DNA from: Caulobacteraceae bacterium
GTDB lineage: Bacteria; Pseudomonadota; Alphaproteobacteria; Caulobacterales; Caulobacteraceae
NCBI GenBank assembly: GCA_947441065.1
Contig: CANESI010000033.1
Span: 1 to 33,444 of the forward strand
Reading direction: 5' to 3'
Length of the DNA: 33,444 bases
Positions within the stretch are counted from its first letter, which is position 1. The number at the start of each line of letters is the position of its first letter. The notes beneath the pieces were generated by a model. The model was not told the origin of the DNA and did not search any database. It saw only the letters and a program-made list of their open reading frames with translations. Made by a program: the position numbers and the translations under genes. Positions 5,256-32,348 of this stretch are shown here, in pieces.

Positions 5256-5260
5256 GAAAA

Positions 5261-5371
5261 CAAGACCCCCTTCGGCCCTTCGGGCCACTTCCCCCAGAGG
5301 GGGAAGATTTACCGGTCCTTGATCTTCCCCCTCTGGGGGAAGTACCGGCAAAGCCGGGGTAGGGGGGCTTG
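5261..5371. repeat. Composite palindromic repeat module A
   Basis: Two 19-nt palindromes of the form CTTCCCCC-N3-GGGGGAAG (5288-5306 and 5324-5342) face each other across a short spacer. The left flank has the GGCCC..GGGCC hairpin type and the right flank the ACCGGC..GCCGGGGTAGGGGG type. The whole begins CAAG and ends CTTG. It starts 6 nt after the TPR gene stop and could also act as a 3' hairpin for its transcript. Related modules lie near 7016, 10697, 10971 and 22366. Confidence 0.85.
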
Positions 5372-6890: not shown

Positions 6891-7371
6891 CCGTTTTCCC
6901 CGCGAAGGCGGGGACCCAGACCCTTTCACACAAGCGCAAACCCGCCCACCAGCCCCTGGGTTGCTTCGCTGCGCTCGCAATGACGCGGTGATGGGTTGAG
7001 AGCCATGTTTGAAAACCCCCTACCCCGGCTTCGCCGGTACTTCCCCCAGAGGGGGAAGATCTTGGAGCCTTAAATCTTCCCCCTCTGGGGGAAGTGGCCC
7101 GTAGGGCCGAAGGGGGCTTGTTTTCCCTCTTCCGTTTTCCCCGCGAAGGCGGGGACCCAGACCCTTTCACACAAGCGCAACCCCGCCCACCAGCCCCTAC
7201 CACGTCATTGCGAGGCGCACCGCGCCGAAGCAACCCAGGGGAACATCACTTCTGGTCCATGTCAGCCCCCCGGGTTGCTTCGCTGCGCTCGCAATGACGC
7301 GGGGATGGGGGAGAGGGCCGCGGATGAATACCCCCCACTCCCAACCCTCTCCCCCTCAAGGGGGGAAAGGG
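6891..7371. repeat. Intergenic repeat island 1 (trhO-epoxide hydrolase gap)
   Basis: This 480-base gap holds no gene and is almost wholly repeats. A 67-nt element occurs twice in direct orientation (6891-6957 and 7132-7198) with one mismatch; its core reads CGAAGGCGGGGACCCAGACC. A second family, GGGTTGCTTCGCTGCGCTCG and its inverse, occurs at about 6958-6985, 7206-7236 (inverted) and 7271-7300. A third, CCCCCCACTCCCAACCCTCT followed by a CCCCTCAAGGGG core, lies at 7331-7371. Composite module B sits in the middle. Confidence 0.9.
7016..7120. repeat. Composite palindromic repeat module B
   Basis: Same architecture as the module at 5261 but in the opposite orientation. The ACCGGC-type flank is on the left and the GGCCC-type flank on the right. 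The 19-nt palindromes lie at 7040-7058 and 7076-7094. Confidence 0.85.
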
Positions 7372-10607: not shown

Positions 10608-10696
10608 GCCTATTCAGTTATCGCGTTATCAGCGTTTAGCAAACCGGGGGAACGCAAAAAACTGTCTGTGAACGTAAGTTTGGTAGGTTGCTAAAT

Positions 10697-10742
10697 CTTC
10701 CCCCTCTGGGGGAAGTGGCCCGGAGGGCCGAAGGGGGCCTTG
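10697..10742. repeat. Half repeat module C
   Basis: One 19-nt CTTCCCCC-N3-GGGGGAAG palindrome (10697-10715) with only the GGCCC..GGGCCG flank. It is the only half copy among five module loci here. It lies about 90 nt upstream of the cobS start. Confidence 0.8.
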
Positions 10743-10750
10743 TTTTTCTT

Positions 10751-10970
10751 CCGCCTTCCCCGCGAAGGCAGGGACCCAGACCCTTGCACTCAGACGGAAA
10801 TTGACCCGCTGACCCATGCTTTTGTAGGCAAAAAATGGAGAGCGCGTGAATGAACACCCCCCACTCCCAACCCTCTCCCCCTCAAGGGGGGAAAGGGCTA
10901 GAACCGATAAGCCCTCTCCCTGTGGGAGAGGGTGGGGTGATGGCCTATTCCGTTTTCTTCTTAATGAAAG
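10751..10970. repeat. Intergenic repeat island 2 (cobS-J protein gap)
   Basis: No gene is seen between cobS and the J-domain gene (10608-11092). Besides modules C and D, the gap holds a copy of the GCGAAGGC..GGGACCCAGACC family (10751-10785) and a copy of the CCCCCCACTCCCAACCCTCT family (10857-10899). It also holds an arm with GATAAGCCCTCTCCC that recurs near 22140. Confidence 0.85.
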
Positions 10971-11060
10971 ACCCCCTACCCCGGCTGCGCCGGTACTTCC
11001 CCCAGAGGGGGAAGATCAAGGAGCGGCATATCTTCCCCCTCTGGGGGAAGTGGCCCGGAA
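10971..11060. repeat. Composite palindromic repeat module D
   Basis: The ACCGGC-type flank is on the left, palindromes at 10996-11014 and 11032-11050, and a shortened GGCCCGGAAG flank on the right. It ends about 30 nt beyond the J-domain gene stop, on that gene's 3' side. Confidence 0.82.
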
Positions 11061-11092
11061 GACCCTAAACCAGATTGCCGCCCACCAACCGA

Positions 11093-22001: not shown

Positions 22002-22099
22002 GGGTCTCTTGAGTCTGCCTTCACCAACGAAGCGCCAAACTAGGCCTGTTCCCGTTCAGCGACAAGGGAGAGGTTTGGGGGGGGGGCAAGAAGGAAGGC

Positions 22100-22365
22100 C
22101 CTCACCCAACCCTCTCCCGCAGGGAGAGGGCTAGAGCGGATAAGCCCTCGCCCCCTTCAGGGGGAGAGGGTTGGGTTAGGGGGCATCCACTATCCTCACC
22201 GCGTTCCATCCGTGTGAAAGGGTCTGGGTCCCCGCCTGCGCGGGGAACAAGGGAGAAAAAGCCCTTTCCCCCCTTGAGGGGGAGAGGGTTGGGAGTGGGG
22301 GGTGTTCATCCACTATCCTCCCGGCGTCATTGCTGCGCTGCGCTCGCAATGACGCTCTAAGGAAA
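22100..22365. repeat. Intergenic repeat island 3 (upstream of accA)
   Basis: The 480-nt gap between accA and the lyase gene contains no gene. From the left: a G run near 22077-22087, a pair of CCTCTCCC..GGGAGAGG arms (about 22110-22180), an inverted copy of the GGGTCTGGGTCCCCGCCTGC family (22213-22250), an inverted copy of the CCCCTTGAGGGG..GGGAGTGGGGGG family (22261-22310), and a fragment of the GCTGCGCTCGCAATGACG family (22329-22353). Module E follows. Confidence 0.88.
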
Positions 22366-22470
22366 CAAGGCCCCCTACGGCCCTCCGGGCCACTTCCCCC
22401 AGAGGGGGAAGATTTAAACTCCAAGATCTTCCCCCTCTGGGGGAAGTACCGGCGCAGCCGGGGTAGGGGG
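22366..22470. repeat. Composite palindromic repeat module E
   Basis: The GGCCC..GGGCC flank is on the left, 19-nt palindromes at 22393-22411 and 22428-22446, and the ACCGGC..GCCGGGGTAGGGGG flank on the right, the same orientation as the module at 5261. It ends 13 nt before the end of the lyase gene and may serve as its 3' hairpin. Confidence 0.85.
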
Positions 22471-22482
22471 TTAGCCCCTCCC

Positions 22483-23532
22483 CTACAGCCCGTAAACCTC
22501 AGCAAATTCAGGGTCCTTACCCGCGATCTGGCGGGCGCAATCGACCAAGACCTTGGCCTGTTTCCAGGTGGCATCATCCTGCATCTTGCCGTCGATCATG
22601 GCCACGCCGCTGCCGTCTGGCATGGCTTCGAGGATCTTCTTGGCGAAGGCGACCTCGCCCGGATCAGGGCTGAAGACGCGCTTGGCAACAGCGATCTGGT
22701 CAGGGTGTAGGGTCCAGGCCCCAGCGCAGCCCATCAGGAAGGCATTGCGGAACTGCTGCTCACAGGCATCAAGGTCGGCAATATCGCCGAATGGGCCATA
22801 GAAGGCCTTAAGCCCATAGGCCGCCGTCGCATCAACCATCTTGGCCATGGTGTAGTGCCACAGGTCCTGCTGCACCGAGGCGCGCGGCGAGCCATCGGCC
22901 TTTGGATCTTCGATCACGCGATAATAGGGATGACCGCCGCCGACGCGGGTGGTCTTCATGCCGCGCGAGGCAGCCAGATCGGCGGGGCCGAGGCTGATCC
23001 CGTGCATGCGGGGACTTGCCGCGCAGATGGCCTCAATATTGTTGACGCCCTCGGCGGTCTCCAAGATGGCGTGCAGTTGGATCGGCTTGGTCACGCCATG
23101 ACGGGCTTCGAGCTGGGCCAAATATTGGTCCATGAAATGGATATCCCACGGCCCCTCGACCTTGGGCACCATCATCACGTCAAGACGATTGCCGACCCCT
23201 TCAACGATCTCGCTGACATCATCCATCAGCCACGGCGAGTTCAAGCAGTTGATCCGGGTCCAAAGCCCCACGCCCATGGCCGCAAAATCGGTGGCATTGG
23301 CCATCTCGATAAAGCCGCGTCGCGCCAAGGTCTTGGCATCCGCAGGAATCGCATCCTCCAGATTGCCGAGAATCACATCCACCGTCGCGGCGATCTGCGG
23401 TACCTTGGCCCGGACCTTTTCGAGGTGCGGCGGCACGAAATGGATCATGCGCTCGACCCGAGGCGGAATCTCACGCAAGGGCGCAGGGGCACCAATGGCC
23501 AAGGGCTTGAAATAGTTGCGCGGCGTTTTCAT
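22483..23532 (-). CDS. HpcH/HpaI-type CoA lyase (malyl-CoA / citramalyl-CoA lyase-like)
   Basis: A 349-residue protein of the HpcH/HpaI aldolase and citrate lyase beta superfamily. It resembles L-malyl-CoA/beta-methylmalyl-CoA lyases (Mcl1-like): [35 protein letters not shown], the Arg of [38 protein letters not shown] with the metal-binding Glu, and [20 protein letters not shown] with the second acidic ligand. The expected reaction is reversible Mg-dependent cleavage of a malyl-CoA-type ester to acetyl- or propionyl-CoA plus glyoxylate. No ethylmalonyl-CoA or glyoxylate pathway genes flank it, so the exact substrate is open. Start supported by GGAAGGG about 7 nt upstream. Confidence 0.88.
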
Positions 23533-23592
23533 GATCGAGCCCTTCCAGACGGTTAGACCCCCGTTTTGGCGCCCCTATGCCAAAGGGTCAAG

Positions 23593-23604
23593 ATGTCCGG
23601 ACAT
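23593..23604. promoter_or_regulatory. 12-bp palindrome upstream of the CoA lyase gene
   Basis: A perfect 12-bp palindrome, ATGTCCGGACAT, lies 61 nt upstream of the lyase ATG, where an operator could sit. Its first ten bases recur at 30556-30565 in the rpoH leader. A regulator site is only a suggestion. Confidence 0.3.
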
Positions 23605-23617
23605 TTAACGGCGCGGC

Positions 23618-23712
23618 CCTATCAGCCCCAAACAAAAAGGGCCGCTCCAGCGGACCAGCCCTTTTCGAAATTCTGAGGCCTTAAAAGGCTTAGGCGGCGG
23701 CTTGTGCGGCGA
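23618..23712. repeat. Direct repeat copy 1: rpmB 3' end remnant
   Basis: These 95 bases match 24552-24646 with 5 mismatches and no gaps. In the minus-strand rpmB frame the copy still encodes LAAQAAA and a TAA stop, then the terminator stem. Upstream of that point the match to rpmB stops. It therefore looks like a duplicated 3' end left at the far side of an inserted segment. Confidence 0.9.
23634..23666 (-). terminator. Intrinsic terminator after the HNH gene (duplicated copy)
   Basis: Stem AAAAGGGC (23635-23642) pairs with GCCCTTTT (23658-23665). Read on the minus strand it ends in a T run. Its inner helix carries one change relative to the rpmB copy (GGTCC opposite GGAGC), so the upper stem is weakened. 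It now serves the HNH gene, about 70 nt past its stop. Confidence 0.8.
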
Positions 23713-23733
23713 GTTTCTGGCTTAGTGCGGAAA

Positions 23734-24447
23734 TCAGGCGGGATTTGTATCCGCGAGAAAATCTCCGAGAGCCTTACCGGTTTTTCGTGAGTTACATTCG
23801 CGGCAAGCTGTTATAACATTATCATATTCATTGCCGCCGCCCTGAGAAACTGGCGTGATGTGGTCGAGCGTTGCGGTAAAACGGGTGAGTTGTTTTCGGC
23901 AATATTCACATTGATAGCCGTCTCTCTCAAAGATTAGCGTTCGGTTCTCCCTCACATTGTAATAATCAACTTCAGATTGTGGATTTAAAATCGGATCAGG
24001 CTTGATAGCTTCCGATTTCATTGCAAGCCTACACAACTCAATCTCTTCAGGGATCAATACCTTGTAAAGGGTTCCGGTCCTGTTAGGCTCTGATTGCTTA
24101 CAGATCACACCCAAGTCAACAAGCTGCTTTAGGCTGGCTGCCACCAATTGCACACTGATACCGGAAGCGGCATCCGCCCTCGCAGAGCTTACAATATGCC
24201 GTAGGCCGGAAACGCTGACACGTACATATTGCGTTCCAGACCCAATAATCGAATGCCGAAACATATAAAAGTAAACCGAAGCCTCATAAGGTGTAAGTTG
24301 AGGCATCAGATAATCGGTTACATCGGCTATTATTTCGGGCAATTCGAGGGCCGCAAAGTCTCGTAAAGCAGCATCTTCCGGTGACGTCGTTATTCTATCC
24401 TCAAGGGTACTTAGAAGTCCCCGAATCTGTTCAATCTCGTCACTCAT
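23734..24447 (-). CDS. Winged-helix / HNH endonuclease protein (probably acquired)
   Basis: A 237-residue protein. Residues 1-45 are acidic and helical. About 48-135 look like a winged helix-turn-helix (LTPYEASVYFYMFRHSIIGS, then QYVRVSVSGLRHIVSS, ASLKQLVDLGVICKQ and GTLYKVLIP), as in replication-initiation-type modules. The C-terminus (about 172-225) is a zinc-ribbon HNH nuclease: CEYC (180-183), catalytic DH at 195-196 in TATLDHITPVSQGG, Asn210, and CREC (215-218) followed by Asn219. The expected role is a metal-dependent DNA nickase or nuclease targeted by the wHTH. A GGGGAGG ribosome-binding site precedes the ATG. Base composition is lower in GC than the neighbours (86/180 over 23761-23940 and 23/60 over 24241-24300 by hand count, against 39/60 in accA). 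It is bounded by a duplicated rpmB 3' end, which indicates insertion. Confidence 0.88.
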   Translation of the reverse strand: MSDEIEQIRGLLSTLEDRITTSPEDAALRDFAALELPEIIADVTDYLMPQLTPYEASVYFYMFRHSIIGSGTQYVRVSVSGLRHIVSSARADAASGISVQLVAASLKQLVDLGVICKQSEPNRTGTLYKVLIPEEIELCRLAMKSEAIKPDPILNPQSEVDYYNVRENRTLIFERDGYQCEYCRKQLTRFTATLDHITPVSQGGGNEYDNVITACRECNSRKTGKALGDFLADTNPA

Positions 24448-24551
24448 TATCGCGGCCTCCCCGCCACCCCTCAGCGAATCGAACCTACAATGAAATCATC
24501 AATTTTCACATTGACCGTGAAACGCTAACACGCCCTCATAGATTGTCAAAA

Positions 24552-24646
24552 CCTATCAACCCCAAACAAAAAGGGCCGGTCCAGCGGACCAGCCCTTTTC
24601 GAAATTCAGAGGCCTTAAAAGGCTTAAGCGGCGGCTTGCGCGGCGA
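24552..24646. repeat. Direct repeat copy 2: native rpmB 3' end and terminator
   Basis: The intact partner of the repeat at 23618-23712. It covers the last eight rpmB codons including the stop, a short spacer and the terminator. The two copies are 934 bp apart and enclose the HNH gene. Confidence 0.9.
24568..24600 (-). terminator. Intrinsic terminator of rpmB
   Basis: Stem AAAAGGGC (24569-24576) with GCCCTTTT (24592-24599), and an inner helix GGTCC/GGACC. Read on the minus strand it ends in a T run 20-30 nt after the rpmB stop. Confidence 0.9.
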
Positions 24647-24920
24647 TCTTCGCCTTGAGCTGGCGCTTGATGCGCACGGCGCGCAGCGACAGGTCGGCGT
24701 CAGGCGCCTTGACCAGGAACACGTCCAGACCGCCACGGAAATCCAAGGTCCGCAGGGCGGCATTGGTGATACGCAGACGGAAGGACTGGCCCAGCACTTC
24801 GGACTGAAGCGTGATCGCCTTAAGCGCGGGCAGGAACCGGCGCTTGGTCTTGACGTTAGAGTGGCTAACATTGTTGCCGACCATAGGGCCAACACCGGTG
24901 AGTTCGCAGCGGCGCGACAT
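24624..24920 (-). CDS. rpmB: 50S ribosomal protein L28
   Basis: A 98-residue large-subunit ribosomal protein, near the length usual for alphaproteobacterial L28. It begins [20 protein letters not shown], followed by [13 protein letters not shown], and ends with [20 protein letters not shown]. The frame is open upstream to 25046, but the ATG at 24920 matches the family start and has AAGG about 7 nt before it. It is divergent from the DUF3108 gene. Its own terminator lies directly downstream, followed by the HNH insertion. Confidence 0.96.
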
Positions 24921-25169
24921 GCTCAAACCTTCGAAAAAGTAACAGGGACCCGCGAAAGGGCTTCCGCGAGAGAGGGGGCGGTATAGGCCACCCGCGCCGT
25001 ACACGTCAAGGCCCCCGGCATGGCCAAGGATGAGTTTCTGCCTCATTGTCTTGTCTGGTCATGAAACGGCCAAGTTTCACACCGAGGTGATAGATCTCTC
25101 ACGGCCCCTTCAACCCGGCCACAGTCTTAGCCTATAAGGCGTCGAAATCCTTTGGTTCGGAGACCCTTC

Positions 25170-26012
25170 ATGACCGGCCGCAGCCGCTCCATTGCATCCT
25201 GCTCTGCCGCCCTGGCAATCGCGCTGGCGACGCTCGCCTCGCCGGTCCTTGCGCAGGGTGACACGCCGTTGGTCCCCGAGGCCAAACCCATGAAGCTGGC
25301 CCTCGGCTATGACGGCCGACTCTATATCAAGGTTCTAGACATTCAGTTCAACCAGACCGCCAGCCCCGAGGCCTTTAGTTCTAAGGTGCGGCTGGTGACC
25401 TACGGCCTGCTGAGGGCCTTCCGTAAACTGGATATGCGCGCCAATGCCCAAGGCCGCGTCGTCAGTGGCGAACCCCAGCCCGGCTCGATCACTCACCAGA
25501 ACATCGACGGAAAGCATAACCGAAAGGTCACTGCCACTTGGACGACCTCCGACGTGGTGTCGGCCTCAATACCAACCTATGATTCGATGGGCGACCCGCC
25601 CGCAACAAGGGCACAGCGCGTCACAGCTGCTGACCCCTTGACCAACTTTATGCGCATGACCCTCGCGAGCAGCCAAGATGGTCCCTGTCAGGGCAAGGCG
25701 CGGTTCTATGACGGCAAGCAACTTTACGAATTGGATTTTGCAGGGCCCAAGCCCTACCGGCTCGACAACCGCGAAAAACGGTTCGGACTGGTCAATCCGC
25801 TGCGCTGCACCGTGCGTTATAGCGAGGTGGCCGGGTTCAAGAAAAAGGCCGTTGAGGACAAGAGCGGCGGCCTGAGACGGCCGATCACGACCGACTGGGC
25901 GCAGGTCGGCGTTGGCGGGCCTTGGGTGCTATCCTCCCTGTCGGCAGAGACGCCCCTAGGCGATGCCGTGATCCAGTTGGCGCGCATGAACATTGAGGGC
26001 ACCCGCCCCTAG
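25170..26012 (+). CDS. DUF3108-type exported protein
   Basis: A 280-residue exported protein resembling DUF3108 domain proteins found next to rpmB in related bacteria. The signal peptide runs through ALAIALATLASPVLA|QG. The mature part opens with MKLALGYDGRLYIKVLDIQF and contains FYDGKQLYELDF and a final VIQLARMNIEG, the repeated beta-strand pattern of the family. The biochemical role is unknown; a periplasmic location is likely. An in-frame upstream GTG at 25152 exists, but the ATG at 25170 has GGAGA 8 nt upstream and starts right before the signal peptide. The 120-nt divergent gap to rpmB should hold both promoters. Confidence 0.8.
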   Translation: MTGRSRSIASCSAALAIALATLASPVLAQGDTPLVPEAKPMKLALGYDGRLYIKVLDIQFNQTASPEAFSSKVRLVTYGLLRAFRKLDMRANAQGRVVSGEPQPGSITHQNIDGKHNRKVTATWTTSDVVSASIPTYDSMGDPPATRAQRVTAADPLTNFMRMTLASSQDGPCQGKARFYDGKQLYELDFAGPKPYRLDNREKRFGLVNPLRCTVRYSEVAGFKKKAVEDKSGGLRRPITTDWAQVGVGGPWVLSSLSAETPLGDAVIQLARMNIEGTRP

Positions 26013-28842: not shown

Positions 28843-29123
28843 GTGAAGAGACCTGCCGTATCGATGTCTGGCTCTGGCGCGCTCGGTTCTTGAAGACCCG
28901 CGCCCTCGCCGCCAAGTTCGTGGAAGACGGGCGCGTGCGCCTCGAACGCCCCGGCCTTGGTCCGCCCGCTCGCCTCGACAAGCCCTCACGCACCATCAGA
29001 CCCGGCGATCAACTGACCTTTGCCATCGCCGCCCGCGTCTTTGCGGTCCGCATCGAAGCCCTCGGCGAACGCCGTGGCCCCGCCCCCGAAGCCCAAGGGC
29101 TCTACAGCGACCTTCCGGCCTAA
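28839..29123 (+). CDS. S4 domain RNA-binding protein (HslR-like)
   Basis: A 94-residue protein that is essentially one S4 domain, the alpha-L RNA-binding fold seen in HslR/Hsp15, which binds stalled 50S subunits. CRIDVWLWRARFLKTRALAA (6-25) and FVEDGRVRLE are the signature helices, and IRPGDQLTFAIAARVFAVRI closes the domain. Compared with E. coli Hsp15 it lacks a long basic C-terminal tail. Translationally coupled to the helicase by a 4-nt overlap. A role in rRNA or stalled-ribosome handling is inferred from the family. Confidence 0.88.
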   Translation: MSEETCRIDVWLWRARFLKTRALAAKFVEDGRVRLERPGLGPPARLDKPSRTIRPGDQLTFAIAARVFAVRIEALGERRGPAPEAQGLYSDLPA

Positions 29124-29278
29124 ATCTGGGAACAAGAGGGTCAATTTCCATCCGCCAAACCCCTACCCTCAGAATTCCTGATAGGGCTGCGAATGGATCG
29201 GCTGTTGACAGAAACGTCGATCCCCTGAGATAGACCGCGACCACCGTTTCGTGGCCGACCGGATATCGTGGACTTGAT

Positions 29279-31596: not shown

Positions 31597-31636
31597 CATT
31601 GCCCATATCGAAGCCTTTGAACGGCCTGTGCAGACA

Positions 31637-31738
31637 GGTCTGGGTCCCCGCCTGCGCGGGGAACACGGATGTGGGAAAACACCTAAAGCCCTTTCCCCCC
31701 TTGAGGGGGAGAGGGTTGGGAGTGGGGGGTGTTCATCC
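31637..31738. repeat. Intergenic repeat island 4 (after tRNA-Arg)
   Basis: An inverted copy of the TCTGGGTCCCCGCCTGCGCG family (31637-31664) is followed by an inverted copy of the CCCCTTGAGGGG..GGGAGTGGGGGG family (31688-31738). The same two families stand in the same order and orientation at 22213-22310. No gene is seen between the tRNA and the NnrU gene. Confidence 0.88.
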
Positions 31739-31754
31739 CGTGCCCCTAGCCCCC

Positions 31755-32348
31755 TCACCCAAACGGGCTGACACCGACCAAGAGGCGGTGACCGCCCATG
31801 ATCAGGGCTGCCCAGGCGCCGGTGCCGAGTACCAGGGTCAGGATGAGGCCGAGTGGCTTGTACGGCACAGGCTCGCTGGGGTTGGCGCGGTCGCGTTGGC
31901 GGGCGGCGCGGAAAGCTAAGACCGCCCAGATCAGGAACGAGCCGAACAGCACAATATCGGCCAGATTGCCGTTGCTGAGCAGGTGAGCCAGAGCCCAGAC
32001 CTTGACCGACAGGACCATCGGATGGTGCAGCTTGGCTTTCAAGACATTGGCCGGAATATAGGTCGCGACCATCAAGATCAGGGCGGGCAGCATCAAGAGA
32101 ACAGCAATATGGCGCGTCGCCACCGGCGGCAGCCAGATCACAGCCGGACTTAATCGCGCTTGGCTATAGCCCCAGATGATCAGGGCAAAGCCGATCAGGG
32201 ACACAATCGAATAGAGCCCCTTGAAACCACCGGCCCCGAGGCGCTGTACAAGACCATCGCGAAGGCTTGCTGGGCCAACACGCAGGCTATGGCAGCCCAA
32301 GAACAGAACCAATCCACAAATCAAAAGCAGCATGATCCTCATTCCCAT
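31755..32348 (-). CDS. NnrU family inner-membrane protein
   Basis: A 197-residue polytopic membrane protein of the NnrU family, whose founding member is encoded near denitrification genes; its biochemical role is not settled. Hydrophobic helices are seen at about 4-20, 44-60, 82-98, 125-147 and 168-186. The family landmarks LFLGCHSLRVGPASLRDGL at the N-terminus and ANVLKAKLHHPMVLSVKVWA, followed by HLLSNGNLADIVLFGSFLIW, are present. No nitrite or nitric oxide reductase genes are in the window. The ATG at 32348 is followed by in-frame ATGs at 32342 and 32333; the true start among them is uncertain. Confidence 0.88.
   Translation of the reverse strand: MGMRIMLLLICGLVLFLGCHSLRVGPASLRDGLVQRLGAGGFKGLYSIVSLIGFALIIWGYSQARLSPAVIWLPPVATRHIAVLLMLPALILMVATYIPANVLKAKLHHPMVLSVKVWALAHLLSNGNLADIVLFGSFLIWAVLAFRAARQRDRANPSEPVPYKPLGLILTLVLGTGAWAALIMGGHRLLVGVSPFG

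Follow-up and report, generated by a model that had tools for sequence, protein, structure and literature searches.

Free-standing homing endonuclease genes (HEGs) are best known from phages. As far as the accessible portions of the cited papers go, free-standing HNH endonuclease genes sit between conserved genes (PMC2988022), phage HEGs cluster near essential genes (PMC10448857), and T4 introns undergo one-sided homing events with illegitimate junctions at microhomology (PMC2988022). If a chromosomal one-gene nuclease insert offers a predicted cut point, two diverged gene ends and an empty site for comparison, the origin of such insertions would become directly testable. Here we analyse such an insert beside rpmB in a 33,444-nucleotide stretch of DNA from a Caulobacteraceae bacterium, hereafter the window.

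All features of the locus lie on the minus strand, in the order rpmB, copy P of the rpmB end, a 104-bp spacer, an HNH gene, a 21-bp spacer, copy D of the rpmB end and a lyase gene. The rpmB gene (24624-24920), encoding ribosomal protein L28, is intact: it has the full frame of 98 codons and matches Pfam Ribosomal_L28 (2.9e-22) and NCBIfam L28, and its protein is 100% identical to that of the congeneric genome G006. Copy P (24552-24646) adjoins rpmB, and copy D (23618-23712), a displaced rpmB 3′ end, adjoins the HpcH/HpaI-type lyase gene (22483-23532; Pfam HpcH_HpaI, 1.1e-24). The two copies form a direct repeat of 95 bp with five mismatches and no gaps. Both the repeat and the intact rpmB had been described in the initial annotation, and both were confirmed, the repeat by recounting and by a repeat search that aligned 23618-23717 with 24552-24651 (93% over 100 nt). 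Across 23001-25200 the top-scoring ungapped direct repeat reaches 80, compared with a maximum of 14 in 30 block shuffles, and a search of the window's own genome with 23100-23712 returned these two copies and no third.

Each copy holds the last 6-7 rpmB codons, the stop codon, a strong hairpin and a 12-bp tail beyond it, with fold energies of -41.2 kcal/mol for copy P and -40.6 kcal/mol for copy D. From its appearance, we read the hairpin as a terminator; a consensus terminator scan did not list it, reporting one weaker terminator-like site at this place against 2.2 expected from shuffles. Two Rfam matches at copy P both fall under the gathering score, and an RNA element was set aside as a candidate. 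The unique part between the copies (23713-24551) is 839 bp long, giving a repeat period of 934 bp, and contains only the HNH gene (23734-24447; 237 codons; Pfam HNH, 7.5e-13, and HNH_5, 8.4e-13; structure model and fold search), with a spacer of 48% GC on its start side (24448-24551) and the short spacer (23713-23733) between its stop codon and copy D. No integrase is found within these 839 bp, so the earlier description of a minimal element lacking an integrase holds.

The initial annotation proposed that the HNH gene had been inserted, and that close relatives should show an empty site with a single terminator. A search with 23100-23712 matched five of the seven genomes of the genus, including the window's own. 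In G006 and G002, the neighbour of rpmB is again this lyase gene, one terminator-like hairpin is present in each, and the distance from the rpmB stop to the lyase start is 146 and 148 bp, respectively, versus 1091 bp in the window. G005 has rpmB with a different neighbour and the lyase gene on a separate contig, G004 has only fragments of the lyase gene, and neither G001 nor G003 gave a match to the 23100-23712 query. Colinearity between the window and G006 extends over 17 kb, and its three large blocks match at 91-93%. Since the site is empty in two congeners that share the gene order, we conclude from these comparisons, which comprise two genomes, both congeners, that the HNH gene and the second rpmB end represent a real single-gene insertion at this locus, present in the window and absent from the homologous sites of G006 and G002.

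Other differences between the relatives were seen along the window. Between its S4-domain and ferredoxin-like genes, G006 has a gene for a HigB-like toxin (Pfam HigB-like_toxin) together with an HTH gene (L126, 16246-16825). About 0.7 kb is missing at 29123-29161 of the window relative to G006, and G002 is also about 0.7 kb longer at that spot. Palindromic repeats of one family, about 50-110 bp long with a CTTCCCCCAGAGGGGGAAG core, recur in intergenic positions (5257-5366, 7010-7124, 10690-11080, 22096-22475 and 31620-31759), and the palindromic repeat region at 22184-22475 is absent from G006.

The HNH gene is judged foreign to its host because its composition lies far below that of six neighbouring genes, with a GC content of 46.8% versus 61-67% and a GC3 of 43.7% versus 70-80%; the AT-richness noticed at first sight is thus borne out. 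On the protein, Pfam identifies HNH only, and no Pfam family scores above its cut-off in the N-terminal half. An AlphaFold2 model built from 18 aligned homologues (mean pLDDT 78.5, pTM 0.52) contains a predicted winged helix within residues 35-150, which agrees with the wHTH assignment of the initial annotation. Structures that match this part include RbkR (Z 9.7, rmsd 1.9 over 68 residues) and CRP, DnaD and others at Z 8-9; these Z values reflect a common winged-helix arrangement and do not imply function. Residues 160-226 adopt a predicted HNH fold similar to TasH (9w04; Z 8.1, rmsd 2.0, 59 aligned residues), and the Gme HNH structure 4h9d matches the model with a Foldseek E of 5.5e-04 and a Z of 7.5, but with an rmsd of 6.6. 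The IscB model matches the HNH domain at 4.1e-14, under its own cut-off. Among the 18 homologues, D195 is invariant and H196, N210 and N219 are nearly invariant, and we take these four to be the catalytic HNH positions. With its Pfam HNH domain and these conserved residues, the gene product is probably a DNA-cutting enzyme, as judged by sequence and model. Assignment to a known defence family was rejected: all 14 PADLOC matches (PtuB, DpdF and others) lie within residues 154-228, the HNH region.

To describe the family, we searched genome contigs; a single-protein query found no relative and an alignment query found 50 loci. Of these, 22 (L062-L083), a lower bound for a search that used two peptide patterns, show 33-57% identity along most of the protein's length, and their record titles name Pseudomonadota, Acidobacteriota, Cloacimonadota, Neomarinimicrobiota, Sumerlaeota, Chloroflexi and others. 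The other 28 loci have HNH-only matches and were put aside as domain background; one of them, L084, is truncated at the end of its contig and could be a genuine homologue. A profile of the N-terminal half recovered the window's genome alone among 398 genomes of the order and again alone among 398 genomes of the phylum, a set that overlaps the first. In the class Alphaproteobacteria (385 genomes), the protein-spanning matches among those listed come from the window's genome, G422 and G062, and G412 has a weaker long match (29%, residues 42-228); matches were listed for 272 of the 385 genomes, and the HNH-only ones, which make up most of them, were treated as domain background. The spread of the wHTH-HNH family, as sampled by these searches, is patchy. 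In a tree of 18 rows, Neomarinimicrobiota group with Cloacimonadota (100/99), Methylotenera groups with the Methylococcales-type rows (100/99), and the nearest row to the window is L072 (94/87). Several copies appear damaged, by an early stop at L072, a frameshift at L080, a stop plus a deletion at L081 and an altered C-terminus at L074, and perhaps also at L082 (stops in the one frame tried); they come partly from draft MAGs, and sequencing error may explain some of them.

Neither a phage nor a plasmid origin was retained: 80% coverage of the protein is reached by none of 144 matching phage records and by one of 60 matching plasmid records, the latter at 28% identity. One nearly full-length match was found in an IMG/VR contig (L130; one of 17 loci). 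Among the papers listed by literature searches, none, judged by title and abstract start, treated this wHTH-HNH family or integration at rpmB.

The genomic settings of the homologues are varied. At L079, in Geothrix rubra, the homologue is one cassette in an attC array, with repeats on either side, and this was the only one of 21 homologue loci scanned with an attC pair (consensus RYYYAAC ... GTTRRRY). An integron origin of the window copy was rejected, as 23600-24699 contains no attC pair on either strand and the genome, in an assembly that is 97.5% complete, has no IntI (TIGR02249) match above the cut-off; sub-cut-off IntI matches carry little information, since all 14 control genomes have them as well. 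In three MAGs (L075, L076 and L080) the homologue lies 80 bp after an lpdA-like gene, and in two (L069 and L081) it lies 56 and 43 bp after a pyrC-like gene. These gene names are ours, with Pfam run on L080 and L069 only: the upstream neighbour at L080 has pyridine-nucleotide oxidoreductase domains, and that at L069 has one amidohydrolase match just over the cut-off. The spot after the HNH gene is occupied by a GNAT gene at L075, by a ParE-type toxin and a small upstream gene at L076, and by no such small gene at L080. The position after the lpdA-like gene thus looks like a place where gene-sized inserts settle.

Toxin-antitoxin or abortive-infection-type Pfam matches were present in neighbours at six of 15 loci (AbiU2 at L062, PIN at L067, HipA at L068, HicB and YoeB at L070, nucleotidyltransferase at L072 and ParE at L076), in a scan of 20 proteins, one or two per locus, that were hand-picked partly for toxin-antitoxin-like looks. 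A relaxase (Pfam) neighbours the homologue at L063. The family, whose N-terminal half carries no Pfam name, is found near toxin-antitoxin-type genes and in a superintegron. In locus pairs with unrelated flanks (L064 versus L075 and L076, L065 versus L068, and L067 versus L069), DNA similarity begins 1-7 bp before the start codon and stops 20-45 bp before the gene end. Because the similarity between these loci ends near the ORF ends, it suggests an ORF-sized mobile unit, but such edges could alternatively arise from faster drift in non-coding flanks. The idea that the HNH gene belongs to a mobile kind gains support from the presence of the family at unrelated sites across phyla, from the integron cassette and from the ORF-confined DNA similarity.

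A further claim of the initial annotation, that the element targets the rpmB 3′ end, found no support. At 21 of the 22 homologous loci (all except L083), no rpmB was seen among the neighbours viewed, and a scan for repeats spanning the gene turned up no gene-end duplication like that of the window; it covered 21 of the 22 loci, all but L077, which has no upstream flank, and L072, L082 and L083 had fewer than 250 bases on one side. Strong direct repeats were limited to L079 (attC) and L064 (REP-like), where the adjacent gene, which has no Pfam match, presumably encodes a RAYT-type transposase. Weaker direct repeats at L070 (41 bp) and L071 (58 bp) have one side more than 500 bp from the gene. 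A comparison of terminators upstream of homologues (2 of 21 versus 9 of 133 controls) is uninformative, the scan having missed the window's own hairpin. We surveyed 90 rpmB loci (30 and 60), mostly best-scoring ones and not a random draw, of which 89 including the window's were testable; none of the 88 others, all of the family Caulobacteraceae, has a duplicated rpmB coding end, and the rpmB end was dismissed as a hotspot in this family. Short repeats were seen at L012 (22 bp) and L019 (41 bp), both after the stop codon; at L019 (G009), the stretch just 3′ of the rpmB stop recurs about 1 kb downstream with 88% identity. As far as seen in these sequences, the duplication is peculiar to the window locus, and targeting of rpmB by the wHTH-HNH family is not supported. 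Homologues that are never near rpmB and lack flanking duplications had been named in advance as grounds for giving up the proposal; that is what we observe for targeting by the family, whereas the insertion at this locus stands.

These surveys also bear on the proposal that the insert is what is left of an integrative element (CIME-like), in which a tyrosine-recombinase element entered at the rpmB 3′ end and lost its integrase and other genes, leaving P as attL and D as attR. Tyrosine-recombinase elements integrate at the 3′ ends of the ribosomal protein genes rplL, rpmE, rpmG and rpsI, and such remnants retain attL and attR without an integrase, according to the available part of PMC5704250. 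The genome itself has five tyrosine-recombinase matches above the cut-off, two of them Xer-like by our reading, and one match, supported by Pfam, lies in the window. However, the 839 bp contain no integrase and 0.93 kb is all that remains, no coding end is duplicated at any of the 88 other rpmB loci, and the wHTH-HNH family occurs elsewhere without such ends (21 of 22 loci scanned); we consider this origin unlikely. Three further tyrosine-recombinase matches, on contigs C9 and C17 of the window's genome (G000), lie in open frames of 472, 196 and 443 aa.

The ancestry of the two copies was examined by comparison with the congeners. The rpmB body (24647-24935) differs from G006 at 2 of 289 positions and from G002 at 16 of 290, while P and D differ from each other at 5 of 95 (5.3%), about as much as copies of different species. 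Ten aligned columns distinguish G006 from G002. The four of these that fall in the tail, in which P and D are identical to each other, were left out of the count. At the remaining six, P matches G002 at four and D matches G006 at four, with P and D unlike each other at only two of these columns. This pattern agrees weakly with an imported P and a native D, and we infer that D is the native copy. The 12-bp tail, present in both P and D and absent from both empty sites, counts against this assignment, since a simple native D does not predict it. The suggestion that one end came from another strain is thus partly upheld: the between-species divergence and mixed ancestry of the copies speak for it, and the two differing columns and the shared tail limit how far it can be taken.

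The shared tail would be explained by a tandem duplication in place, in which the HNH gene landed beside rpmB and a stretch with the rpmB end was then duplicated and diverged. P and D, however, are about as far apart as either is from the copies of other species, and G006 has no insert despite its nearly identical rpmB body, which makes this order of events very unlikely. The window also comes from a metagenome-derived genome of 83 contigs with 1.38% contamination, in which diverged copies might arise from an assembly chimera of two strains. Such an artefact is still less credible, and highly improbable, as the inner junctions are both in sequence that is not repeated, exact runs common to P and D reach 28 bp at most, and both outer sides are colinear with G006.

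We then propose a tentative model, possible although somewhat short of probable, in which a horizontally acquired, roughly ORF-sized wHTH-HNH gene was inserted 3′ of rpmB by one-sided, homing-like repair. Incoming DNA from a congener would have brought its own rpmB end and hairpin, the later copy P. The final rpmB codons would have been broken near 24646, possibly by the nuclease itself, and the rpmB side would have been repaired by copying the donor stretch of rpmB end, hairpin and HNH gene. On the other side, the copied end would have been joined to the broken recipient end, such that D starts at the break and the displaced rpmB end of the recipient survives as copy D. The insert is expected to be close to neutral: rpmB retains its stop codon and hairpin, the HNH gene is followed by a second hairpin, and the sequence ahead of the lyase gene is preserved. 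One-sided repair predicts a duplication that starts at the break and a donor end beside rpmB, matching the arrangement found. Both the break at the rpmB end and its maker are inferred. Against the proposed repair stand the ancestry of P and D, which differs at only two of six columns, the 12-bp tail absent from both empty sites, the lack of a comparable duplication at any other homologue (21 of 22 loci scanned) and of any homologue seen next to rpmB, and the tyrosine recombinases of the genome, which could act in trans.

The same pair of copies is also the exact outcome of a single crossover with a circle, so host recombination alone might have placed the gene: incoming DNA with a diverged rpmB end would have recombined through the 95-bp homology, for example as a circular or repeated intermediate, with the HNH gene as a passenger and the nuclease uninvolved. 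Genes around the locus do gain and lose gene-sized inserts between relatives, as with the HigB-like pair of G006. This route requires a donor with the HNH gene already beside an rpmB end, and none exists among the genomes viewed; we regard it as possible but on the unlikely side. Returning to one-sided repair, it is tempting to extend it to the whole family, which would move across phyla as nearly bare ORFs among chromosomes and superintegrons and land 3′ of host genes. The window would then hold a one-sided homing fossil in which the start of D shows where the final rpmB codons were cut and the hairpin brought along kept the insertion from doing harm. This wider picture is speculative, and we consider it rather unlikely.

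Compared with known systems, the window protein shares the HNH domain with IscB, Cas9d, TasH and the Gme HNH nickase, but has no RuvC or RNA-guide parts, and its N-terminal half is a predicted winged helix. The Geothrix rubra homologue is an integron cassette with repeats on both sides, unlike the window locus, which has no attC pair and whose genome has no IntI match above the cut-off. Direct repeats that include a gene 3′ end, together with an intact rpmB, recall integrative elements and CIMEs at ribosomal protein gene 3′ ends, as described in the accessible part of PMC5704250; the window insert differs from these in its size of 0.93 kb, in lacking an integrase or relaxase and in the absence of recurrent rpmB use at 88 loci. 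In contrast to the phage homing genes in the portions of PMC2988022 and PMC10448857 at hand, the window family resides in bacterial chromosomes, encodes a predicted nuclease with a putative winged-helix DNA-binding half and comes here with a duplicated gene end. With the T4 mob genes and the phage HEGs near essential genes described in those portions, the window gene has in common that it is a single HNH gene, intergenic and beside a conserved gene. It is also, like free-standing homing genes, foreign and patchily distributed, with some decayed family members, and the mixed ancestry of the window's rpmB end, in which P and D differ at two of six columns, recalls co-conversion.
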